A stretch of 11,935 bases of DNA, taken from assembly GCA_009783975.1 (NCBI GenBank), contig WRCL01000023.1:1-11935 (forward strand). The letters are read 5' to 3'. Numbering within the stretch: position 1 is the first letter of the stretch; each line of letters begins with the position of its first letter. The notes under the pieces are model-generated. The model made no database searches. It was not told where the DNA came from and saw only the letters and a program-made list of their open reading frames with translations. The position numbers were made by a program, and so were the translations under genes. Positions 1,633 to 11,935 of the stretch are shown here, piece after piece. This DNA comes from Micrococcales bacterium (GTDB taxonomy: Bacteria; Actinomycetota; Actinomycetes; Actinomycetales; Cellulomonadaceae).

Positions 1633-1703
1633 GCGAGGGGTGAGGCCGGCACAGGCAGGCATCAGGGGGGATGAGAGCCAGGTGGCACACACAGTGCCGA
1701 CAG

Positions 1704-1848
1704 CTGCCGATGGGGACACACGAGGGCGACGGTCCGATGGGCACGAGCACCACGGTTGCCGCTGGGCGCACAAGGCGACGGGTACACGGGGCGACGGCTG
1801 CCGCTGGGTACACGGGGCGACGCTTGCCGCTGGGTACGCGGGGCGACG
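1704..1848. repeat. Degenerate tandem array of about 25-bp units
   Basis: Near-identical units lie at 1798-1822 (25 nt) and 1823-1848 (26 nt), both of the form C-T-(T)-GCCGCTGGGTAC-(A/G)-CGGGGCGACG. A related unit is at 1756-1780, a truncated one at 1781-1797, and more diverged ones at 1704-1731 and 1732-1755. Unit length is not a multiple of three and varies by 1-3 nt, which argues against a coding repeat. There are no unique spacers between units, so it is not a CRISPR array. Divergence increases leftward, suggesting newer duplications on the right. Function is unknown. Confidence 0.7.
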
Positions 1849-1954
1849 CTGGGCGCAGGCCGGGGCCACCGCTGGCGACGGTCAGACGCAGTGGCGTGGT
1901 CGCGATCGAGGTTGGCGCTGTCCTGGCAGGGGCGGCAGATGAGAGGGTGGGCTG

Positions 1955-2698
1955 GTGGTGATTCCTGACGAGCTGCCGCGGTCGCCGACGGGGCGGATCC
2001 CCCAGTGGGTGATCGACGAGGCTGCTGCTCGTCGTGCCCAGACGCCGGGCGGTCCCCACGAGCCGTCCGTCGTGCGCCGGCGGGGCGGGCGTCGGTGGTG
2101 GGTGGGGGTGCTTGTTGGGGTCGCGATCGTGGCCGTCGGTGTCGCGTTCAGCTGGTCGGCGGCGCCGTGGGTGCACCCGGCGGCGTCGGTGGACGTGGCA
2201 GACCTTGCCAGCGACGCTGCGATGAGCCCGACAGGCCGCCAGCTGTTCTACGACAACGACCCGCAGCTGCTGGGTGACGACGGGTTCACAGACCACTGCC
2301 CAGAAGGGTCGAGCGGGTGCTACAACGCTGCGGAACGGTCGATCGTCGTCTACCGCTACCCCGACCAGCGCCTGCGCGGGCTGGTCGTCACCGCCGCGGC
2401 GCACGAGATGCTCCATGTGGCCTACGAGTCGCTGAGCCCGGCCGAACGCCGTGAGGTCGACCAGCTGCTGGCGTCGGTCGTGCGAAGCCTCGACCCGGAC
2501 GACCCTGTGCTGGAGCAGGTGGCATGGTCTGTGGGGGACCGCGAGCAGGTCCGCGGTACTGAGCACTTCGCGTACGTCGGCACCCAGGTCGCCTACCTCG
2601 ACCCGCGGTTGGAAGAGGTCTACGCCCGGTTCTTCGACGACCGGCAGGTCGTCGTGCAGACCTATACCACGACGATGCGTCTGGTCGCCGGCGGCTGA
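1955..2698 (+). CDS. Membrane-anchored putative HExxH zinc metallopeptidase
   Basis: The 247-residue protein has an N-terminal cytoplasmic segment of about 47 residues that is basic just before the membrane (VRRRGGRRWW), one transmembrane helix at about 48-68, and an extracytoplasmic domain. That domain contains HEMLH at 150-154, matching the HExxH zinc motif, and a downstream GTEHFAYVGTQ segment whose Glu203 is a plausible third, gluzincin-type ligand. Cys115 and Cys122 could form an extracytoplasmic disulfide. Orientation follows the positive-inside rule. The start is one of two adjacent GTG codons (1955 or 1958) preceded by GAGAGGG (1941-1947). Similar small actinobacterial membrane proteins with a HExLH and GTE pattern are familiar to me but have no assigned substrate. 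It has no functional tie to the convergent gab operon. Protease activity is inferred only from the ligand pattern. Confidence 0.8.
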   Translation: MVIPDELPRSPTGRIPQWVIDEAAARRAQTPGGPHEPSVVRRRGGRRWWVGVLVGVAIVAVGVAFSWSAAPWVHPAASVDVADLASDAAMSPTGRQLFYDNDPQLLGDDGFTDHCPEGSSGCYNAAERSIVVYRYPDQRLRGLVVTAAAHEMLHVAYESLSPAERREVDQLLASVVRSLDPDDPVLEQVAWSVGDREQVRGTEHFAYVGTQVAYLDPRLEEVYARFFDDRQVVVQTYTTTMRLVAGG

Positions 2699-2706
2699 CC
2701 GGTCAG
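2695..2706. repeat. Palindrome containing both convergent stop codons
   Basis: CTGACCGGTCAG is a perfect 12-bp palindrome at the meeting point of two convergent genes. The plus-strand TGA (2696-2698) and minus-strand TGA (2703-2705 read in reverse) sit symmetrically in its arms, with only 4 bp between genes. The stem is short and has no loop or T-tract, so a terminator role is doubtful. Confidence 0.55.
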
Positions 2707-3407
2707 GCCGGCTCGTCGTGGGAGCGCCGGCGGGGCAACCATGAGCGCCGGGGGTTGCGTGGGGCGGAGGCGGCGACGAGGTCACGCAGGGGCAACGGGC
2801 GGTCTTGGGCGCGGTGGCGGGCCATGACCAAGAAGATCAAGGCGGTCGTCCAGGCGTCGCCCAAGGCGTGGTGCGGGGTGAAGATCGGCAGGCCGAGGCG
2901 GGTGGCGACCGTCTCCAGACCGGGCGAGCGGTGCGGGTCGCGGCGCACCGCGAAGTGGTCCCAGGTGAGCTCGGCGGTGTCGACAGCCGGCATGTGCACC
3001 GACAGTCCGCAGCCCAGCAGCACCCGGTCGAGGAAACCGGTCTCGACCCAGGCGGCGTGGGCGACGAGCACCCGGCCAGTCAACGCCACGAACAACGGGT
3101 CGAGAGCCTCGGGCAGGCCCGGGGCGTTGCGCAGGTCCGACGGCCTGATGGCATGGACACGCACCGACTCAGGAGACGGGGGGATCTGCGGGCGCACCAA
3201 CCCGTAGACCGACGAGCGTCCGACGACCCGGCCAGAGTCGATGTGGACCGCCCCGAAGGAGATGATCGCGTCGTCGTCACCCAGACCTGTGGTCTCGAAG
3301 TCCAGCACGGCAAGACGTGCGCGGTCCCACGGCAGCTCGAGCTGGGCGTTGACCTCGCCCTGCCCGTCGATGAAACCGGACATGAACGACGAGACTGCGG
3401 CGGTCAT
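2703..3407 (-). CDS. DnaQ-like DEDDh 3'-5' exonuclease
   Basis: The 234-residue protein resembles the DNA polymerase III epsilon/RNase T exonuclease superfamily. ExoI is clear (LAVLDFETTG, Asp36 and Glu38). ExoII is VLVAHAAWVETGFL at about 113-126, with Glu122 where most members carry Asp. ExoIII is HHALGDAWTTA, with His180 and Asp184. There is no polymerase or clamp-binding domain, so it is a stand-alone nuclease acting on DNA or RNA ends; the substrate is unknown. The ATG overlaps the preceding DUF294 stop as ATGA, with a GAGGAC ribosome site 9 nt upstream, indicating translational coupling. In many bacteria such exonucleases sit beside cNMP-CBS-DUF294 proteins, as here, so the two probably act in one regulatory function. 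It is the last gene of the five-gene minus-strand operon. Confidence 0.9.
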   Translation of the reverse strand: MTAAVSSFMSGFIDGQGEVNAQLELPWDRARLAVLDFETTGLGDDDAIISFGAVHIDSGRVVGRSSVYGLVRPQIPPSPESVRVHAIRPSDLRNAPGLPEALDPLFVALTGRVLVAHAAWVETGFLDRVLLGCGLSVHMPAVDTAELTWDHFAVRRDPHRSPGLETVATRLGLPIFTPHHALGDAWTTALIFLVMARHRAQDRPLPLRDLVAASAPRNPRRSWLPRRRSHDEPA

Positions 3408-5182
3408 ACCCGCGACGTCCTCGCGGTCAACGCGGACTGGACGGCGTCGATCGCCCGGAACGCCTCACGCAGCTGGCGGCGCTCGAGCGGGTCCAGGCGG
3501 TCTGGGCGCAAGAACCCGGTGGGTTTCTCACCGGCTTTGATGGCCCTGACCTGGTGCTCGGCCAAGACGGTCAAGGACACTTTGTACGCCCCGGCGAGCA
3601 TGTCGCGTTCGTCGTCGGTGATCAGGCCCGCAGCGGCCCCACGGTCGAGGCGTTCGAGGGTGCTGCCGGTGACGTCCCCGGCGCGCAGCGCCAACCACCG
3701 GGCCAGCGAGCTCACCGGGACCAGCCCACCCTTTTTCAGGTCCAGGTGGCCGCGGTGCTCGCCGGACTGGTGGACGACGAAGTCGCGCACGAACCCCAGC
3801 GGGGGACGGCGGGTGAGGGTGTGGCGGGTGAGCACCGCCATGAACAGCTCGTGGGACACCGCTTCGGACACAGCGTCGACCAGGGGAGAGGCCTGGCCTC
3901 CACACACCGGCCGAGAGTCGGCGACGATCGAGGCCAGCGCCAGGGCCCCGGCCTCCTCGTCGTTGTCGAACCAGCTGGCCACAGCCTGGCGCCACTGGTC
4001 TTCTGAGCGGTTGAACAGCGAGTTGTCGGCGTTCGCCCCACGGTCGCATGTGGCAAGCCCTGTGCGTTCGACCAGGCGCAGCACCCGTGAGGCGTGGGCG
4101 AGGTAGTCGCCCGGGTCGCCGTCGTACCAGCACAGGGCTGTGTCGACGTCTGAGCCAGGCAGCGGCTCGCGCCGTGCGAGCGAGCCTTGCACGAGCCATG
4201 TGGCTTCCCGGGACGCCTGCGGCGCGGGGACGAGGGCGACCGCGCGGCGCAAGATCGCCCCGACCACCCCGGACTGCAACCGCCCGATGTACTCGATCGG
4301 CAGGCCACGGGTGACCAGCTCGATGATCGACGGGCTCACCAGGGCGCTGGCCTCGACAAGCTCGTCAGGGGTCTGGGCGCGTTCGACCGCTCCGCGCACG
4401 ACCAGGGGGTCACGCAGCTCGGCAGAGGCGACGTCGACGACACGGACCACCCCGACCGGGCGGCTCTGCAGGTCCACGACGACCAGGTGGTGGATGCTCG
4501 CCTCGACCATCGCCAGGTACGCGTCACCGAGCAGCGCGTCGCAGGTGATGGTCCGTGCCGGGAACGACGCGATCGTCCCGACCGCTGCGGTGACCGGGAC
4601 CTTCCCGGTCGCCACCTGGCGCCGCAGCTCAGAGTCGGTGATGACCCCGAGCCCACCGTCGGGGGCGCTGACCAGGGAGCACGAGGTGCGTGACGCGGTC
4701 ATCGCCGTGGCCACATCAGCGATCGAGGTGTTCGCCGGGTGGATGATCACCGGGCGCATCGAGTCGGTCACCTTGCCCTGGGCGGCGTCGAAGAGCCGTT
4801 CGGGGCGTGTGAGCTGGCTGGAGGTGCTGACCGGGGCGAGGTTGCCCTCACGGAGCGTGTCAGGCAGGGGCACGAGGTAGAGCAGGGTGTCTTCGGCGGC
4901 TTTGACCGCGTGGGCGTACTGGCGGCCGGCACGGACGGTCTCCAGGGCGAGCAGGTCACCGGGGTCGACCTCGTCGACGACCGTGCCGGCCGGTCCGATC
5001 ACCTCCAGCCGGCCCACACGCACCATGACCGCAACCCCGAGGCTGGGCTGCCCCACCTCGACGACCAGGTCACCAGCCAGGTGGTACTTCGCGTCGATGA
5101 CGACCGCGAGCTGTTCGAGCTCTTCACGGTCGAGGTCGCTGAACGGCGGGTACGCCTCGAGGAAGTCGGCGATCTCTTTCAT
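3404..5182 (-). CDS. cNMP-binding / CBS / DUF294 nucleotidyltransferase-like regulatory protein
   Basis: The 592-residue protein has four regions. A cyclic-nucleotide-binding-like beta roll occupies about 10-115 (PPFSDLDREELEQLA start). A CBS-domain pair lies at about 135-262 (MRPVIIHPANTSIADVATAM; HHLVVVDLQSRPVGVV). A DUF294 nucleotidyltransferase-like domain follows, with GSLARRE (333-339) and SDVD (344-347) matching the GS...DxD signature of GlnD/GlnE-type enzymes. A DUF294_C domain occupies about 450-590. A soluble cytoplasmic regulator sensing a nucleotide and possibly modifying a protein or nucleotide target is the family expectation; no substrate is established. The start has GAGGGGGT about 5 nt upstream and sits 34 bp after the permease stop. 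Its stop overlaps the exonuclease start as ATGA. DUF294 proteins often lie next to transporters, and here the adjacent transporter is the amino-acid permease. Confidence 0.93.
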   Translation of the reverse strand: MKEIADFLEAYPPFSDLDREELEQLAVVIDAKYHLAGDLVVEVGQPSLGVAVMVRVGRLEVIGPAGTVVDEVDPGDLLALETVRAGRQYAHAVKAAEDTLLYLVPLPDTLREGNLAPVSTSSQLTRPERLFDAAQGKVTDSMRPVIIHPANTSIADVATAMTASRTSCSLVSAPDGGLGVITDSELRRQVATGKVPVTAAVGTIASFPARTITCDALLGDAYLAMVEASIHHLVVVDLQSRPVGVVRVVDVASAELRDPLVVRGAVERAQTPDELVEASALVSPSIIELVTRGLPIEYIGRLQSGVVGAILRRAVALVPAPQASREATWLVQGSLARREPLPGSDVDTALCWYDGDPGDYLAHASRVLRLVERTGLATCDRGANADNSLFNRSEDQWRQAVASWFDNDEEAGALALASIVADSRPVCGGQASPLVDAVSEAVSHELFMAVLTRHTLTRRPPLGFVRDFVVHQSGEHRGHLDLKKGGLVPVSSLARWLALRAGDVTGSTLERLDRGAAAGLITDDERDMLAGAYKVSLTVLAEHQVRAIKAGEKPTGFLRPDRLDPLERRQLREAFRAIDAVQSALTARTSRV

Positions 5183-5216
5183 CGCCGACCCCCTCGAACG
5201 CGGTCGTTGTCCATGG

Positions 5217-6803
5217 TCACACTGTAAGGTCTGGCGGATCGTCCTCTATCGCGTCCTGGGTCGGCGTCCCGCCTTTGACGGGGATAGCGTCGCCGGACGG
5301 GGTGTCGGAGTGCCGGTACGGGTGGGCGGTGAACAGGTAGAACAGCCCGGAGCCGATGACGACGCAGGCGGTGAGCATGACGAGCCAGACGTCGTACCAC
5401 TTGAACCCGGGTTCGCCCAGGTCCCAGGGCCACACGATCGCCAAGATCCCCAGGACGCCCCAGGTCAGGGCGCCGATGTTCACCGCCAGGCCCCACTTGC
5501 CCAGGCGGAACTTGCCTGAGGGCTGCCAGCCTTTGAGCCGGGCGCGCAACGCGGCGAGCACGACGGACTGGAACCCGAGGTAGATGCCGATGGCGGCGAA
5601 GCCGATGATGCGCCACAACGCGCTCTCAGAGAGCATCGACCCGATCGCGATGGCCGCGGGGACGCCGCCGGCGACGAGCAGGGCGACCGGCGGGACGTGC
5701 CGGGACTGCCAGAACACGCGCAGGAAGCGGTGGCCCATGATCATCTTGTCGCGCGAGAACGAGAACAGCAGGCGGCTCGCAGCGGCCTGGAGGCTGATCA
5801 AGCACGACAAGAACGCGAGGACGACGATGAGCAGGACGATCTTGTCCGCCGACCCGAAAGCCTCGTGGATGGTGTGGCTCACCGGGTCCAGGGCTCCGGT
5901 CGCGCACTCGCCGGTCCGCTCGTCGAAGTCGATGCACGCACCGCCAGAGTTGATGACCGCCGTGATGTTCGGCACGACCGCCATGATCAAGGTGAACGCG
6001 GTGAAGGTCGCAGCAAAACCACCGATGTAGATCGTCATCCGCATGGCTTTGGGAATCTGGACACCAGGGTTGGGGACCTCTTCGGCAAGGTCCCCGCACG
6101 CCTCGAACCCGTAGTACTGGAACACGGCGACAAGACCAGCCGAGGCGAAGGCGAAGAAGTACACCTTGCCGTCCGCGGCGCCCATCGTCTTGAAGATGAC
6201 AGAGAAGTCGTGGCTGCCGCGCACGAGCAACCACGCGCCCACACCCACCGCGCCGATGAGGCCGGTGATGAAGCCCATCGTCACGGCCATCGACAAGACC
6301 TTGGTCCCACCAAGGTTGACGATCGTCGACAGTGCCAGCAGCGCAAGGGCTGCGACGACCATGTACCGCACCGAGTAGTTGTGGCCGAGCATCGAGGCGA
6401 CGAACGGGCTGGCCCCGCACGCGATCCCGCCGATCGAGGAGAACAGGGCGAACATGTAGATCCACCCGGTCATCCACGCCCAGCGTCTGCCCCACAACCG
6501 CCTGGCCCACGGGTAGATCCCGCCGGCGACCGGGTATTGCGAGACGATCTCGCCGAACACCAGGGCGACGAGGAACTGCCCGCACCCGACGATCAAGAAC
6601 GCCCACACCATCGGCGGGCCGGCTGTGGCGATCGCCGCCGAGAACAGCGTGTAGACACCGACGATCGGTGACAGGTAGGTGAAGCCGACGGCGACGTTGC
6701 CCCACAACCCCATCTCACGTTTGAAGTCGGAGGTGTAGCCGAGCGCCGCAAGCTGCGCCGCATCGTCGTCGACATGCCCATGGGCGGGCTGGTTGGAATC
6801 CAT
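5217..6803 (-). CDS. APC-superfamily amino acid permease, likely GABA uptake
   Basis: The 528-residue polytopic protein has about 12 predicted membrane helices. Family signals include GNVAVGFTYLSPIVGVY in TM1 (about 35-51), SQYPVAGGIYPWARRLWG (88-105), and FQYYGFEACGDLAEEVPNPG (228-247), typical of the amino acid/choline (ACT) type of APC transporters that includes GABA permeases. Cys290 and Cys300 lie in an extracytoplasmic loop and may pair. The chosen ATG at 6803 has AAGGAA 7 nt upstream (6811-6816). A longer frame to 6986 would overlap gabD heavily and encodes Arg/Pro-rich, non-membrane sequence. It lies 35 bp after gabD and 34 bp before the DUF294 gene in one transcript. GABA as substrate is inferred from the operon; another amine or amino acid is possible. 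Confidence 0.9.
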   Translation of the reverse strand: MDSNQPAHGHVDDDAAQLAALGYTSDFKREMGLWGNVAVGFTYLSPIVGVYTLFSAAIATAGPPMVWAFLIVGCGQFLVALVFGEIVSQYPVAGGIYPWARRLWGRRWAWMTGWIYMFALFSSIGGIACGASPFVASMLGHNYSVRYMVVAALALLALSTIVNLGGTKVLSMAVTMGFITGLIGAVGVGAWLLVRGSHDFSVIFKTMGAADGKVYFFAFASAGLVAVFQYYGFEACGDLAEEVPNPGVQIPKAMRMTIYIGGFAATFTAFTLIMAVVPNITAVINSGGACIDFDERTGECATGALDPVSHTIHEAFGSADKIVLLIVVLAFLSCLISLQAAASRLLFSFSRDKMIMGHRFLRVFWQSRHVPPVALLVAGGVPAAIAIGSMLSESALWRIIGFAAIGIYLGFQSVVLAALRARLKGWQPSGKFRLGKWGLAVNIGALTWGVLGILAIVWPWDLGEPGFKWYDVWLVMLTACVVIGSGLFYLFTAHPYRHSDTPSGDAIPVKGGTPTQDAIEDDPPDLTV

Positions 6804-6838
6804 GTTCGTGTTCCTTCGGTTCGTCTCGTGGTGCCGGA

Positions 6839-8308
6839 TCAACCCAGGACGAGTGTGTACTTGGTGGTGAGGTACTCTTCGATGCCTTCGCGGCCGCCTT
6901 CTCGGCCAAGGCCTGACTGTTTGACACCGCCGAAAGGCTGGCTGGCGTCGGAGACGACCCCGGTGTTCAGCCCGAGCAGGCCGCACTCGAGGGCGTCGAT
7001 GAGACGTGTGGCCCGGTTGAGGTCTTGTGTGTAGGCGTATGCGGCCAGGCCGTACTCGGTGGTGTTGGCCAGGGCGATCCCATCAGCTTCGTCAGCGAAC
7101 GTCGTGATCGGCAGCACCGGGCCGAAGATCTCCTCGACCATGACCAGCGCGTCGGCCGGGACACCGCCAAGGACCGTCGGCTCGAAGAAGCAGCCGGGAC
7201 CTTCTGGTGCTTTTCCGCCGGCGAGCACCTGGGCGCCACGTCCGACGGCGTCGGCGACCAGGCGCGCGCAGTTGTTCACGGCAGCGTCGTCGATGAGGGC
7301 GCCGATCTGCACCCCGTCGTCGGTCCCAGGGCCGACTTTCATCGCCGCGACACGTTCGGCGACCTTGGCCGAGAACTCTGCGACGACCGACTCGTGGACG
7401 ATGAACCGGTTCGCCGCCGTGCACGCCTCACCGATGTTGCGGAACTTGGCTGCCAGCGCACCGGTGACCGCCGCGTCGACGTCCGCGTCGTCGAAGACGA
7501 GGAACGGGGCGTTGCCGCCGAGCTCCATCGAGGTGCGCAAGACGTTCTGCGCGGCCTGGCGGATGAGCACCTGGCCGATCTCGGTGGACCCCGTGAAGCT
7601 CACCTTGCGCAGGCGCGGGTCTGCCAGCAGCGGCGCGGACTGCGACGAGGAGCTGTTCGTCGGCACGACGTTGACCACCCCGGCCGGGACACCAGCCTCA
7701 TGCAGGATCTGCATGAAGGCCAGCGTCGTCAGCGGTGTGAGCTTCGCGGGTTTGACGACCATCGTGCACCCTGCGGCCAGGGCCGGGGCGATCTTGCGCG
7801 TGGCCATGGCCAGCGGGAAGTTCCACGGGGTGATGAGGTAGCACGGGCCCACAGGGTGGCGTGAGACGACCGCGTGGCCGGTGCCGATGGGGTTGGTCCC
7901 GAACCGGCCGGTGATCCGCGCAGCCTCCTCGGAGAACCAGCGGACGAACTCGGCGCCGTAGGCGACCTCGCCGCGGGCCTCGGCCAGGGGTTTGCCCATC
8001 TCCAGCGTCATGATCAACGCGATGTCTTCGGTGCGGGCCACGAGCATGTCGAACGCCCGGCGCAACGTCTCACCACGCACCCGCGGGGGTGTGGCCGCCC
8101 AACCAGGCCCGGCCGCCACAGCAGCGTCGAGGGCTGCCATGGCGTCGTCGGGGGTGCCGTCGGCGACGTCGGCGATACGCTCACCGGTCGCCGGGTTCGT
8201 CACAGCGAACGTTGCGCCGCCCGACGCGGGCCGGAACGCCCCGTCGATGTACAGGCCGGTGGGGGTGGTGCCCAGGAGGGCCTCGATCCGCTGCGGGGCC
8301 ACGCTCAT
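6839..8308 (-). CDS. gabD: Succinate-semialdehyde dehydrogenase
   Basis: The 489-residue enzyme oxidises succinate semialdehyde, the product of the adjacent transaminase, to succinate. The ALDH fold is complete. Asn163 lies in TPWNFPLA, Lys186 in VVKPAKLTP, the FTGSTEIG cofactor loop spans about 238-245, the general base Glu262 is in MELGGNAPF, and catalytic Cys296 is in NIGEACTAAN. The C-terminal QPFGGVKQSGLGREGG motif is typical of SSADH-like enzymes. Lys189 replaces the glutamate common in KPxE of NAD-preferring relatives, hinting at NADP use. The ATG overlaps the gabT stop as ATGA (8305-8308), so the two are translationally coupled. The substrate is assigned from gabT linkage and overall similarity; glutarate semialdehyde is the main alternative. 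Confidence 0.93.
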   Translation of the reverse strand: MSVAPQRIEALLGTTPTGLYIDGAFRPASGGATFAVTNPATGERIADVADGTPDDAMAALDAAVAAGPGWAATPPRVRGETLRRAFDMLVARTEDIALIMTLEMGKPLAEARGEVAYGAEFVRWFSEEAARITGRFGTNPIGTGHAVVSRHPVGPCYLITPWNFPLAMATRKIAPALAAGCTMVVKPAKLTPLTTLAFMQILHEAGVPAGVVNVVPTNSSSSQSAPLLADPRLRKVSFTGSTEIGQVLIRQAAQNVLRTSMELGGNAPFLVFDDADVDAAVTGALAAKFRNIGEACTAANRFIVHESVVAEFSAKVAERVAAMKVGPGTDDGVQIGALIDDAAVNNCARLVADAVGRGAQVLAGGKAPEGPGCFFEPTVLGGVPADALVMVEEIFGPVLPITTFADEADGIALANTTEYGLAAYAYTQDLNRATRLIDALECGLLGLNTGVVSDASQPFGGVKQSGLGREGGREGIEEYLTTKYTLVLG

Positions 8309-9645
8309 GCTGCTGCTCCAATCTCGGCCAGACCGGCCAGGATGATGTCGATACCTTCGGCGAGCAGGGCCTCGTCGATGGTCAGGGGGGGCAAGAACCG
8401 CAGCACGTTGCCGTAGCTGCCGCAGGTGAGGGTGATGACACCACGGCCGCGGGCCAGGCCTGCGACCTGGTTGGCCAAGGCGGCGTCGGGGTCTCCGGTC
8501 GCCGGGTCGACAAGCTCCATGGCGATCATCGCGCCACGTCCGCGCACGTCACCGATCCGGCTGTCGCCGGCCTGGGCTGCGCGCAGACGCTGGACGAGCA
8601 GGTCTTCGATGACCTGGGCCTTGGCGATGAGGCCGTCGGCCTCGTAGGTCTCGATCGCCGCGAGCGCCGCGGCGCACGCGAGCGGGTTGCCGCCGTACGT
8701 GCCACCCAGGCCCCCAGGGCCGCTGGCGTCCATGATCTCGGCGCGTCCGGTCACCCCCGACAGGGGCAGACCGCCAGCCATGCCCTTGGCGGTGGTGACC
8801 ACGTCGGGCACGATGCCGAACAGCTCGGAGGCGAACCAGGCGCCGGTGCGGGCGAACCCGGTCTGCACCTCGTCGGCGACGAACACGATGCCGTTCGCAC
8901 GGCACCAGTCGACGACCGCAGGCAAGAACCCATCAGCAGGCACGATGAACCCGCCTTCGCCGGCGATCGGCTCGATGACCACGCACGCGGTGTTGCCCGG
9001 GCCGACCTGGCGGGTGATCTGCTCGATCGTGCGCCGCGCGGCCTGGGCACCAGACAACCCGTCACGCAGGGGGTACGAGCCGGCCACGCGGTACACCTCG
9101 GGGCTGAACGGACCGAAACCGTCTTTGTACGGGACGTTTTTTGCCGTCATCGCCATCGTGAGGTTGGTGCGGCCGTGGTAGGCGTGGTCGAGGACGACGA
9201 CCGCCTGGCGTTTGGTGTAGGCCCGGGCGACCTTGACGGCGTTCTCGACGGCTTCGGCGCCAGAGGTGAACAGCGCTGACTTCTTGGGGAAGTCGCCGGG
9301 GGTGAGTGCGTTGAGCTTTTCGCAGACCTCGACGTAGGCCTCGTACGGGGTGACCATGAAGCAGGTGTGGGTGAAACGCTCGAGCTGGTCGCGGACCGCG
9401 GCGACAACCCGTGGTGCTGCACCACCGACAGAAGTCACGGCAATCCCGGCGCCAAGGTCGATGAGGCGGTTGCCGTCGACGTCGGCGAGCACCCCACGGT
9501 CGGCCCGGTCGGCGAACACCGGCATCGTCGTGCCGACCCCGCGGGCGACGGCCGCCGTCTTTCTCTCCATGAGGTCTTGCGACCGCGGGCCGGGAATTTC
9601 ACTGTGCACGGACCGCTCCTGCGGCACACCGGATGCGTTGGTCAT
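8305..9645 (-). CDS. gabT: 4-aminobutyrate aminotransferase
   Basis: The 446-residue class III PLP transaminase transfers the amino group of GABA to 2-oxoglutarate, giving succinate semialdehyde and glutamate. Visible sites are the phosphate-binding SGAEAVENA (128-136), DHAYHGRT (153-160), the cofactor-contacting ADEVQTGFAR (257-266, Asp258 and Gln261), and the Schiff-base Lys287 in TTAKGMAGGLP. THTCFMVTPYE, VVIEPIAGEGGFI and GLGGTYGGNPLACAAA also match actinobacterial GabT. The N-terminus (MTNASGVPQERSVHSEIPGPRS) is family-typical. The ATG has GAGGA (9652-9656, read on the minus strand) 6 nt upstream. It is the first gene of the five-gene operon and is divergent from pucR. A diverged copy of its promoter and first codons lies at 11406-11600. 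Confidence 0.96.
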   Translation of the reverse strand: MTNASGVPQERSVHSEIPGPRSQDLMERKTAAVARGVGTTMPVFADRADRGVLADVDGNRLIDLGAGIAVTSVGGAAPRVVAAVRDQLERFTHTCFMVTPYEAYVEVCEKLNALTPGDFPKKSALFTSGAEAVENAVKVARAYTKRQAVVVLDHAYHGRTNLTMAMTAKNVPYKDGFGPFSPEVYRVAGSYPLRDGLSGAQAARRTIEQITRQVGPGNTACVVIEPIAGEGGFIVPADGFLPAVVDWCRANGIVFVADEVQTGFARTGAWFASELFGIVPDVVTTAKGMAGGLPLSGVTGRAEIMDASGPGGLGGTYGGNPLACAAALAAIETYEADGLIAKAQVIEDLLVQRLRAAQAGDSRIGDVRGRGAMIAMELVDPATGDPDAALANQVAGLARGRGVITLTCGSYGNVLRFLPPLTIDEALLAEGIDIILAGLAEIGAAA

Positions 9646-9712
9646 GTTCCGTCCTCAAGATCGGAGGGGTTCGTCCCTCGAATCACGTCGTCGGAGTCGA
9701 AGGGTTGCCCAC

Positions 9713-9761
9713 AAGGTATCGGGTTGATCGGGACTTCTGTCCTCGACGTGCTGTCGAAAGA
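9713..9761 (-). promoter_or_regulatory. gabT promoter with candidate activator operator
   Basis: Read on the minus strand, a TCGAC-N5-GTCGA palindrome (9743-9757) lies upstream of TACCTT (9718 to 9713), which fits the actinobacterial TANNNT -10. There is no good -35; the nearest candidate is AGGACA. The palindrome centre is 32 nt before the first base of the -10, or about -44 from the likely start, a typical position for an activator contacting RNA polymerase. The same layout recurs at 11425-11473 with identical spacing. The PucR protein encoded divergently is the obvious candidate binder, but this is inference. Confidence 0.6.
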
Positions 9762-9796
9762 GTCGTCAGACCATGGCCAGACCGTCCAACAGGCTC

Positions 9797-9802
9797 TAGT
9801 GT
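9797..9802 (+). promoter_or_regulatory. Candidate -10 for leaderless pucR transcript
   Basis: TAGTGT fits TANNNT. Transcription starting 7-8 nt after it would begin at or next to the GTG at 9810, giving a leaderless mRNA. No Shine-Dalgarno sequence precedes 9801 or 9810, which agrees with leaderless translation, common in actinobacteria. The -35 is not evident. Confidence 0.4.
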
Positions 9803-9809
9803 GTGCCAT

Positions 9810-11378
9810 GTGCCCATCACTGTCCGCGATGTCCTACAACGCCGGGACCTCCAGCTGCGCCCAGTCGTCGACGCAGGACCAGCTGCTCTTGACGCGCCCG
9901 TGACCTGGGTCGCTGCCTCAGACCTGGCTGACCCGACCCCGTTCCTGGACCGCGGGAACCTGCTGCTCACCACAGGGCGCCAGCTCGACCCGCAGGGCGA
10001 GGACGCCACCGGCGAGCAGCGCTACACCGGCACCGACGCCTATGTCGCTGCGCTGCGGCGCCGTGGTGTCAGCGCTGTGGGGTTCGGCACGCGGGTGCTG
10101 CACGCCGGGACACCACCCTCGCTCGTCGAGGCGTGCACAACCCACGCGATGCCGCTGTTCGAGGTGCCGTACCACATCCCGTTCATCGCCGTCGTCCGCG
10201 CTGCGGCCGACCTCATCGACGCCGCAGGGCACCGCCGGGCCGCGTGGGCGCTGGCAGCAACCCGTGCGGTCTCGGCAGCGGTCTTGCAGACCTCACCGGT
10301 CGACGCGGTGCTCGGCGAGCTGCGCCGCCAGCTGGGGTGCGGTGTTGTCCTCGTCGACCAGCGCGGGCGGGCCCGGGCGGTCCACGGGCTGCTGGCTGAT
10401 GACCCGATCGTCGCAGCCGCTGGGGCTGAGGCGACGTCGTTGTTGCGCCGCGGCCACCACACCGGTGCCACCGTCTCGGTGCCGTTCCCGCCGCCACCGG
10501 CACCAGCAGGCCGGCCGCGCCCGACGTCGCAGGCCACGACGGCGTACCTGACGATGCAGACCATCGGACCTGACACAGGGCTGCGCAGCGTGCTCGTGCT
10601 CGTGGGCCCCTCAGGGATCGACTCGGCTGAGCAGGCGGTCGTGGCATCGACTGTCGCGCTGCTGTGGTTCGCGATCGGCGAGGGGACCGGTGGTGCGGTG
10701 CGTGCGTCGTTGCGCCGGGCCTTGTGGCACCTGCTGGTCAGCGGCGAGGCCGACGTCGTGCGGACCGAGGCCCCGTCGGTGGGGATGTGCCTGCCTGGCG
10801 AACCGGTCCGGGCTGCGGCGTGGTCCCCAGGGCTCAACACGGTGACCGCACGGGCGTTGCAGGCTGCCTGCGACGGGGGGCACGCGATGGTGTTCTCCAC
10901 CGTCGACGACGTCGTCCTGGCGTGCGTGGGGGCGCAGGACGCCCCTGGGCTCGGTGCGCTCGACCCCGAACGAGGGGTGGGGCTGAGCGAGCCGGTGACG
11001 TTCGCGGACCTGCCCGCGGCTGTGGACCGCGCGCGCCGCGCCGCCCGGTACGCCGCACCTGGCAAGGTCGTCGCCCTCGACGACCCGGGCGCGGGGGTGC
11101 TCGCCGCGGTGGCCACGATGCCAGAGCTCGCCGACCGGGCCCACGCGATGCTCCACCTGCTCGTCGGTGACGACAGCGCTGAGCGCCTGCTGGAAGCCCT
11201 CGCGGCGTGGCTGGCGGCCAACGGCAGCTACGAGGCCGCCGCGAGGACGCTTGGCCTGCACCGGCACACGCTCAGCGCACGGGTCGCACGTGCCGGGGGG
11301 CTGCTGGGACGAGACCTTGACGACGTCGACACCCGCACCGACCTGTGGCTTGCCCTGCGCATGACCGGACGGGTCTGA
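9810..11378 (+). CDS. PucR-family transcriptional regulator, likely GABA-operon activator
   Basis: The 522-residue protein has the PucR N-terminal domain at about 1-125 (ITVRDVLQRRDLQLRPVV; WVAASDLADPTPFLDRGNLLLTTG). A central CdaR/GGDEF-like sensory region follows, and a C-terminal PucR HTH at 460-522 (NGSYEAAARTLGLHRHTLSARV...LDDVDTRTDLWLAL) binds DNA. The start was placed at GTG 9810 because the PucR domain begins immediately there. GTG 9801 is a close alternative, and 9633 would add 59 non-conserved residues running over the gabT start. The gene is divergent from gabT with about 160 bp between them. In C. glutamicum a PucR-type protein, GabR, activates gabTDP in response to GABA, so I infer the same role here. 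The symbol is left blank because the function is inferred by context. Confidence 0.92.
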   Translation: MPITVRDVLQRRDLQLRPVVDAGPAALDAPVTWVAASDLADPTPFLDRGNLLLTTGRQLDPQGEDATGEQRYTGTDAYVAALRRRGVSAVGFGTRVLHAGTPPSLVEACTTHAMPLFEVPYHIPFIAVVRAAADLIDAAGHRRAAWALAATRAVSAAVLQTSPVDAVLGELRRQLGCGVVLVDQRGRARAVHGLLADDPIVAAAGAEATSLLRRGHHTGATVSVPFPPPPAPAGRPRPTSQATTAYLTMQTIGPDTGLRSVLVLVGPSGIDSAEQAVVASTVALLWFAIGEGTGGAVRASLRRALWHLLVSGEADVVRTEAPSVGMCLPGEPVRAAAWSPGLNTVTARALQAACDGGHAMVFSTVDDVVLACVGAQDAPGLGALDPERGVGLSEPVTFADLPAAVDRARRAARYAAPGKVVALDDPGAGVLAAVATMPELADRAHAMLHLLVGDDSAERLLEALAAWLAANGSYEAAARTLGLHRHTLSARVARAGGLLGRDLDDVDTRTDLWLALRMTGRV

Positions 11379-11405
11379 CCGGCGACAACCGTGACGATCG
11401 ACTAT

Positions 11406-11602
11406 CTGGCCAGGCGCAGACAGATCTTTCGACACAACGTCGAGGACGGAGGTCCCGACCCGCGGGATATCGTGTGGACGTCCCTCGACGACGAGGTGGC
11501 CGAGGCCCGCAGCCAGCCGATCCGAGGACCGAACATGACAAAAGCGACCGTCGCGTCGCAGGCACGGTCGTTGCACACCGTGTTTCCCGGTCCACGGTCT
11601 GG
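11406..11602 (+). repeat. Diverged inverted copy of the gabT promoter and 5' coding region
   Basis: This stretch matches the gabT upstream and start region (about 9780 to 9578, minus strand) in opposite orientation on the other side of pucR. The best block is 11425-11458 against 9761-9728, with 30 of 34 bases identical. Other shared blocks are CTGGCCA (11406 and 9780), GATA(C/T)C-(T/G)TGTGG around the -10, and CCGATC-n-GAGGAC-n-GAACATGAC over the ribosome site and start. Distances from CTGGCCA to ATG are 129 and 135 nt. The match continues into codons (see the entry at 11535). Confidence 0.78.
11425..11473 (+). promoter_or_regulatory. Second gab-type promoter with the same operator
   Basis: TCGAC-N5-GTCGA (11429-11443) lies upstream of TATCGT (11468-11473), a TANNNT -10. 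The centre-to-(-10) distance is 32 nt, exactly as in the gabT promoter. The -35 region is again weak. Transcription would run right, through the gabT-like remnant towards the oxidoreductase gene at 11810. Confidence 0.5.
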
Positions 11603-11813
11603 CAACCAACACGCCGCGATGGCGGTCCAGGTGGTGAGCGGACGTGCTGATCACGAGAGTGTGCTGGTCACGGGTCGGTCGCAGTCGTTGTCTCCACCTT
11701 TGACAGACGAAGGTGGAGTCGGTTGGATACACAGACACGGTCTGCGGGTCGCGTCCATGGACGGTCGCATCGGGACTGGCCGGTCCGAGTCGAAAGGAGT
11801 CCTCACACCATGA
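11535..11813 (+). pseudogene. gabT 5' remnant (or leader ORF) overlapping the next gene
   Basis: An ATG with GAGGA 6 nt upstream opens a 92-codon frame. Its first 22 codons resemble GabT: M-T-x-A, Q-x-RS, H and PGPRS are shared, 12 of 22 residues. In PGPRS three of five codons differ only at the third base, showing past protein-level selection. Beyond codon 22 similarity to GabT is lost, codon third positions become less GC-rich, and the frame crosses an inverted repeat and a promoter. It ends as ATGA (11810-11813) with the oxidoreductase start. Most likely it is the surviving start of a deleted gabT paralogue; a retained leader ORF coupling translation to the next gene is the alternative. 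Confidence 0.45.
11692..11728 (+). promoter_or_regulatory. Promoter with inverted-repeat operator over the -35
   Basis: TTGACA (11700-11705, perfect consensus) and TTGGAT (11723-11728) are 17 bp apart. A perfect 9-bp inverted repeat, CTCCACCTT (11692-11700) and AAGGTGGAG (11710-11718) with a 9-nt gap, covers the -35 and part of the spacer. This is the position of a repressor operator. It differs from the TCGAC-N5-GTCGA site, so a different regulator is implied. The predicted start near 11735 gives a 5' UTR of about 75 nt for the gene at 11810. As RNA the repeat could also form a hairpin, but no T-tract follows. Confidence 0.6.
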
Positions 11814-11935
11814 CGGTGACCACACCCTCAGATCTCAGTGCGATCATTGGTGAGCTGAAGCACGCGCTGGGCGACGAGTACGTCACGACCGACTACCACC
11901 AAAGGGCAATCCGGACTTCGAGTGCGTCGCCGATG
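11810..11935 (+). CDS. N-terminus of a probable FAD-linked oxidoreductase (partial)
   Basis: Forty-two codons are visible before the window edge, starting with ATG 10 nt after AAAGGAG (11793-11799). The segment ELKHALGDEYVTTDYHQRAIRTSSAS resembles the region just before the PF01565 FAD-binding domain in glycolate-oxidase and D-lactate-dehydrogenase-like flavoproteins, where LGxxxVxTDxxxRxxxSxDAS is common. The diagnostic FAD-binding loop would be downstream, so the family call is tentative. Placement behind a duplicate gab promoter suggests a link to amine or hydroxy-acid catabolism. Confidence 0.5.
   Translation, partial: MTVTTPSDLSAIIGELKHALGDEYVTTDYHQRAIRTSSASPM

Follow-up and report, generated by a model that had tools for sequence, protein, structure and literature searches.

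A partial, inverted duplicate of the gabT control region beside a GabR-type pucR gene and the possible recruitment of an FAD/Etf operon

How did a sequence resembling the promoter and first codons of gabT come to lie in front of an oxidoreductase gene, on the far side of the regulator gene pucR? The window analyzed here, a stretch of 11,935 nt, is one entire contig of the assembly G000 (68% complete, 430 contigs). It encodes gabT, gabD and an amino acid permease divergently to pucR. 3' of pucR follows the second copy of the gabT-like sequence and then the start of a gene for an FAD oxidoreductase (Table 1). No GGDEF-like domain was matched in the PucR protein at E <= 1. The permease gene occupies the position of gabP and reached 23 bits against the GABA permease model TIGR01773 (reference 678). 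The first-pass annotation had described the two sequences as diverged duplicates and had offered two origins, the loss of a second gabT or a promoter capture which rewired the downstream gene.

Table 1. Features of the window discussed in the text.
Feature	Position	Strand	Evidence or remark
Amino acid permease, gabP position	5217..6803	-	PF13520 E 8e-33
gabD, succinate-semialdehyde dehydrogenase-like	6839..8308	-	TIGR01780 E 8e-166, 552 bits, under cut-off 646
gabT, 4-aminobutyrate transaminase	8305..9645	-	NF004714 723 bits (cut-off 639); TIGR00700 597 bits (cut-off 507)
P1, first copy: gabT promoter and 5' end	9577..9781	-	within the pucR|gabT divergent intergenic region
Candidate operator before gabT, same type as in P2	9728..9761	-	pattern match, dyads intact
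pucR, GabR-type PucR regulator	9810..11378	+	PF07905 7.7e-21; PF13556 5.4e-18
P2, second copy of the gabT control region and first ~22-23 codons	11405..11605	+	before the FAD oxidoreductase gene
Candidate operator, 34 nt, TCTTTCGACANNACGTCGAGGACNGANGTCCNGA	11425..11458	+	dyads TCGAC-N5-GTCGA and GGAC-N4-GTCC
-10-like box TAnnnT (TATCGT), putative promoter element	11468..11473	+	12 nt past operator GTCC
gabT stub, 22 codons, MTKATVASQARSLHTVFPGPRS	11535..11600	+	17/22 identical to GabT of the relative G421, 12/22 to window GabT
Open frame from the stub, 92 codons	11535..11813	+	ends in ATGA overlapping the FAD gene start (11810-11813)
GlcD-like FAD oxidoreductase gene, 5' end	11810..11935	+	cut by the contig end, 126 nt present

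The two copies, P1 on the gabT side and P2 on the oxidoreductase side, are inverted relative to each other. Alignment of P2 with the reverse complement of P1 (inputs 11400-11620 and the reverse complement of 9560-9800) gave a local score of 117. In 1000 dinucleotide-preserving shuffles of both stretches the mean was 18.8 (sd 2.5) and the maximum 30; as none reached the observed score, chance similarity of the two copies was rejected. The details given by the first-pass annotation were confirmed as well: its coordinates (9780 to 9578 and 11406-11602) are correct within a few bases, one block is exactly 30/34 identical (TCTTTCGACAgcACGTCGAGGACaGAaGTCCCGA vs TCTTTCGACAcaACGTCGAGGACgGAgGTCCCGA), and start context and N-terminal peptide pattern are common to both copies (MTKATVASQARSLHTVFPGPRS vs MTNASGVPQERSVHSEIPGPRS). 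With 11390-11640 as DNA query against the whole window genome, the gabT copy was recovered with E 2.6e-20 and 72% identity. A third copy was not found among the 40 of 55 first-look candidates that were scored in this 68% complete genome. The third best of 42 matches had E 0.011 over 25 nt, and 40 of the 42 were at most 35 nt long, so a mobile or repeat element was rejected. Besides the candidate operator with its two adjacent dyads and the TAnnnT box, P2 includes a ribosome site and some 22 codons of gabT; the downstream gene starts about 200 nt past the end of P2.

A related locus was found on contig WRMB01000018.1 (MAG: Micrococcales bacterium isolate Th196P3bin61; genome G421), which belongs to the genus of the window and is probably derived from termite gut, as the label 'Th196' is also used in work on termite-gut MAGs. 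Its PucR is 72% identical to that of the window. G421 and G541 were treated as one genome because the PucR match lies at the same contig coordinates. In the flipped order of G421, a serA-like gene and pucR point leftwards. Facing pucR follow the genes for the FAD oxidoreductase, an Fe-S-type protein, etfB, etfA, a second Fe-S-type protein, a permease, a CBS-like protein, an exonuclease, gabT, gabD and gdh, of which the CBS-like gene and gdh were named by eye. Thus, the FAD operon instead of gabT is divergent to pucR in G421, and gabT is located 12 kb away. Per-gene identities between the window lineage and G421 are 83% for gabT, 82% for gabD, 83% for the CBS-like gene, 79% for the permease, 73% for pucR, 86% and 74% for the two Fe-S-type genes, 84% for etfB and 70% for etfA. 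Third-position divergence in nine common genes ranges from 0.30 to 0.45. P2 resembles the promoter and initial codons of G421 gabT (score 119; maximum of 200 simple shuffles 28) and the window gabT copy (117), and scored 81 against the G421 FAD promoter.

All four control regions of the two genomes contain intact TCGAC-N5-GTCGA and GGAC-N4-GTCC dyads, 15 and 12 nt in length, and a TAnnnT 12 nt after GTCC. The operator in P2 matches the 34-nt pattern without mismatch, the pattern itself being drawn from these copies. In G421, one mismatch was found before gabT and none before the FAD oxidoreductase gene. The second dyad would overlap the -35 region, as placed from the TAnnnT box. Across the four copies 28 of the 34 core columns are invariant, compared to 64 of 178 ungapped columns outside the core (60 of 177 and 63 of 168 under two other alignment settings). 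Because the core was chosen after the alignment had been inspected, a column permutation test was run, in which an equally good 34-column window appeared in 1 of 10000 permutations. The operator was kept while its surroundings drifted, which, judged from the alignment, argues for selection on both copies.

The stub continues as an open frame into the start of the FAD gene, which has its own AAAGGAG site as read from the sequence. In G421 the counterpart of this frame, 348 nt long, extends in frame into the FAD gene. The 92-codon frame is probably not a conserved gene. It gave no family match, and in a search of relatives sharing exact 5-residue words its sole match was a 140-aa protein, 100% identical and encoded by the window itself. 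As this search recovered no homologue, a conserved leader peptide was rejected. Of the 66 positions of the gabT start, 16 differ between stub and G421, 20 between stub and window gabT and 18 between window and G421 gabT. With such similar distances among the three starts, the duplication may date from around the time when G421 and the window lineage separated, or from somewhat earlier.

Over the 41 residues encoded in the window, the FAD protein shares 85% identity with its G421 counterpart. Residues 122-510 were found on contig C66 of the same assembly, with 83% identity to G421, so that the operon appears to continue there; this join is drawn from the FAD protein, of which about 80 residues fall into the gap. 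After the FAD gene, C66 encodes an Fe-S-type protein (86% identical to its G421 counterpart), EtfB (84%), EtfA (64%) and a second Fe-S-type protein (73%), where the Etf and Fe-S-type names go back to matches under the respective cut-offs. Together, window positions 11810-11935 and C66 (L037) 1647-8054 hold a five-gene FAD oxidoreductase/Fe-S-type/EtfBA/Fe-S-type operon. Beyond its last gene a ribosomal S7-like frame was named by eye. The FAD protein is similar to GlcD and D-lactate dehydrogenases, reaching 193 bits with TIGR00387 (GlcD, cut-off 568). Among 98 genomes around G421 it was found at E <= 1e-60 only in G421 itself. The protein collection contains 820 homologues, the best with 90% identity; the best 120 of them reach down to 53%.

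For the distribution of the operator we searched with a core pattern drawn from the four sites of the two PucR carriers. When up to 3 mismatches were allowed, 9 of 81 genus genomes contained it, with exact matches only in these two carriers, twice each. The matches in the other 7 genomes all have 3 mismatches, and a reversed control pattern gave 3 matches. In an order-wide draw of 396 genomes, from which G421 was absent, sites with at most 1 mismatch were seen in 2 genomes, namely that of the window and another which has one such site, with 1 mismatch. This PucR was found at E <= 1e-60, with a subset of the first-look candidates scored in each set, in 2 of 81 genus genomes and in 18 of the 396 order genomes; apart from that of the window, these are 17 genomes whose proteins are 38-42% identical. 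In the 221 family genomes, scored in the same manner, it likewise occurs in 2; this count would be explained by acquisition through transfer, or by disappearance from the majority of family members. At the 17 distant loci, gabT is divergent to pucR within 1.5 kb in 12 cases. Ten of them were followed over 16-18 kb: gabT stands beside pucR in 6, of which 5 also have gabD close by, no gabT was present inside the stretch in 4, and FAD or Etf genes were found in none. Since 12 of 17 distant loci have the pucR|gabT arrangement and 0 of 10 have FAD/Etf genes, the pairing of pucR with gabT probably came first and the FAD operon was added later. Searched in the 17 distant loci, the operator gave 4-6 mismatches in the best three sites per locus, with none in L018. 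In the 12 distant pucR-gabT intergenic regions the best sites have 6-9 mismatches of 19, which 12 to 200 of 200 shuffles reach. The link of operator and PucR rests on two genomes, because these 12 regions stay within chance. The full arrangement, the operator before gabT and the FAD operon together with this PucR, was found in two genomes only.

Duplicating a promoter in front of other genes is a known route of rewiring in bacteria. We consider it likely that the FAD/Etf operon joined a GabR-type regulon when part of the gabT control region was duplicated in front of it. According to this explanation, 11405-11605 would be a partial, inverted duplicate through which the five-gene operon acquired a GabR-type operator with a -10 box, followed by a ribosome site and some 22 codons of gabT. 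Since P2 contains gabT codons, copying would have gone from gabT to the FAD operon; these codons would be a leftover, now part of the 5' leader of the operon. The duplication probably took place before the two known carriers of the locus diverged. With its gene flanked by P1 and P2, PucR most likely binds to both operators and would activate both gabT-gabD-permease and the FAD/Etf operon, which would most likely have come under the same control as gabT. Of the two origins offered by the first-pass annotation, promoter capture is the better supported: the homology of donor and recipient promoters exceeds chance, part of the donor's coding sequence is present at the junction, and operator and TAnnnT stand before gabT and the FAD operon in two genomes despite rearranged neighbours. 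The 10 outgroup stretches without FAD/Etf genes fit as well, although a promoter of the FAD operon from before the capture was not seen in them; homologues of the FAD protein also exist in metagenomes. The G421 FAD leader shows a weak resemblance to the G421 gabT start (58; shuffles 34.9 +- 5.0, reached by 1/1000), and scored 39 against window gabT (14/1000 shuffles) and 37 against the window stub (22/1000). In view of this weak gabT-leader trace, the capture might have been independent in the two lineages.

The other origin, in which a whole gabT with its promoter was duplicated beside pucR and a later deletion left the promoter and about 22 codons, found little positive support, and we regard it as improbable. 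The stub does read as gabT codons and is identical to G421 GabT at 17 of 22 positions, compared to 14 of 22 for window GabT, and of the informative core sites 4 group P2 with the G421 gabT promoter, 0 with the FAD promoter and 1 by species. In Corynebacterium aurimucosum, additional copies of gabR and gabT are also described next to the cluster (PMC7652997). However, past 22-23 codons no clear gabT similarity was seen in 11601-11810: the forward strand scored 51 and 55 (200 shuffles: mean 45-46, maximum 61-62), and the reverse complement 57 (reached by 6/200) and 51 (49/200). A longer pseudogene was therefore rejected. In the 68% complete genome G000, the next gabT match after the known one is only 36% identical. 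In addition, GabT diverged from its G421 counterpart as much as gabD and the CBS-like gene, so that the two GabT proteins look like orthologues and not like survivors of an older pair; an older-paralogue model for gabT is not supported by the per-gene identities. The core sites also allow a somewhat different, though rather unlikely, course of events: crossing-over between the inverted copies could invert pucR and swap the operon, gabT or FAD/Etf, that shares its divergent promoter. Of the core sites that split the four copies, 4 separate pucR-facing from other promoters, 0 separate by gene and 1 by species under three alignment settings; site counts in the upstream, leader and untranslated stretches are mixed and vary with the setting. 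The 48 nt upstream of the core in P1 match the pucR-facing promoter of G421 (score 34, 0/1000 shuffles). For the upstream flank of P2, homology between window and G421 was not significant (96/1000 shuffles), so that the assignment of P1 and P2 rests on the core sites. Window and G421 would then be two outcomes of a partner swap, in which the core types stay with their position at pucR and the genes behind them are exchanged. Further rearrangements would be needed to reach the G421 order, and the 3' end of pucR left no footprint upstream of G421 gabT (74 vs a mean of 62, 48/500 shuffles; 70, 251/500). For these reasons crossing-over is treated as a possibility.

Promoter capture also has to be weighed against explanations in which the duplicated block has another role or none. 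As a silent scar, with the FAD operon driven from elsewhere, it would be consistent with a stub frame without detected homologue and with the drift between operator and start; this is quite unlikely, since operator and TAnnnT persist in front of the FAD operon in the two genomes in spite of the third-position divergence. Even less probable is a functional leader whose translation is coupled to the FAD gene, through the ATGA at 11810-11813 in the window and in-frame read-through in G421. The frame from the stub-like ATG is open up to the FAD start in both genomes, but such open frames are expected by chance at about 0.11 in the window and 0.17 in G421. Moreover, the relation of the frame to the FAD gene differs between the two, and both the missing homologue and the FAD gene's own ribosome site speak against coupling. 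Chance or an assembly artefact is hardly conceivable: although the window is a single contig of an incomplete and fragmented assembly, the shuffles exclude the former, and against a fold-back of the assembly the copies differ at about 28% of sites and G421 carries two operators too.

The gene arrangement is similar to that of GabR and gabTDP in Corynebacterium glutamicum. In the report on that system (PMC7652997), GabR is a PucR-type regulator without GGDEF-like domain, encoded divergently to gabTDP, which it activates by binding two 21-bp inverted repeats just upstream of the -35 region, between -87 and -23. The window shares the divergent PucR-type regulator without GGDEF-like domain and the gabT-gabD-permease order. 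The two adjacent dyads of the candidate operator between pucR and gabT may correspond to the two repeats; they are shorter, as compared by length alone. Activation of both operons by PucR from paired dyads is inferred from this analogy. Its authors infer that GABA use requires no further GabR-activated genes and consider GabR a local regulator, which speaks against a second target operon, in contrast to the window, where the dyads recur before the FAD/Etf operon. Also unlike C. glutamicum, the divergent partner of pucR in G421 is the FAD operon. Within the titles and abstract openings of the literature surveyed, a second GabR-linked operon of this kind was not found. The C-terminal HTH region of the window PucR matches PmfR-type PucR activators (NF045769, E 1.1e-12), but membership was rejected with 47 bits against a cut-off of 800, and a literature search for PmfR with inverted repeats gave no match. 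Like the FAD/Etf lactate dehydrogenases (LctD of 7qh2), the operon has a GlcD-like FAD protein beside EtfB and EtfA. The FAD protein matches 7qh2_C with 3.3e-34, while 3pm9 and the D-lactate dehydrogenase 8jdb match slightly better. Unlike LctD of 7qh2, the window lineage has extra Fe-S-type proteins in its operon. In the citT case of the E. coli long-term experiment, a promoter-bearing piece was reportedly duplicated before a gene and gave it new control. The piece in the window differs from this: it is inverted and short, at about 200 bp, is located next to the regulator gene, and includes a candidate operator together with start codons.

The locus would be a natural example of how a local activator may come to control a further operon, as the candidate operator, the promoter and the initial codons of gabT can still be recognized in front of the FAD gene. 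For the GabR-type regulator of this lineage it predicts a concrete candidate operator sequence, and it links, as a prediction, an uncharacterized FAD/Etf oxidoreductase operon to GABA catabolism. If crossing-over did occur, a regulator with its own recombining promoter pair could exchange partner operons.

Two further observations concern the surroundings of gabT in G421. In the intergenic region between the exonuclease gene and gabT (L032 5041-5392), a frame ending VPIHLVGIEFAEEDHKIVAFESDTIAP looks like the remaining 3' part of a degenerate gene. The gene 3' of gabT-gabD (L032 674-1981) was read as glutamate dehydrogenase, which could regenerate 2-oxoglutarate for the transaminase. A glutamate dehydrogenase homologue was also seen between gabT and gabD in one outgroup locus (L044).
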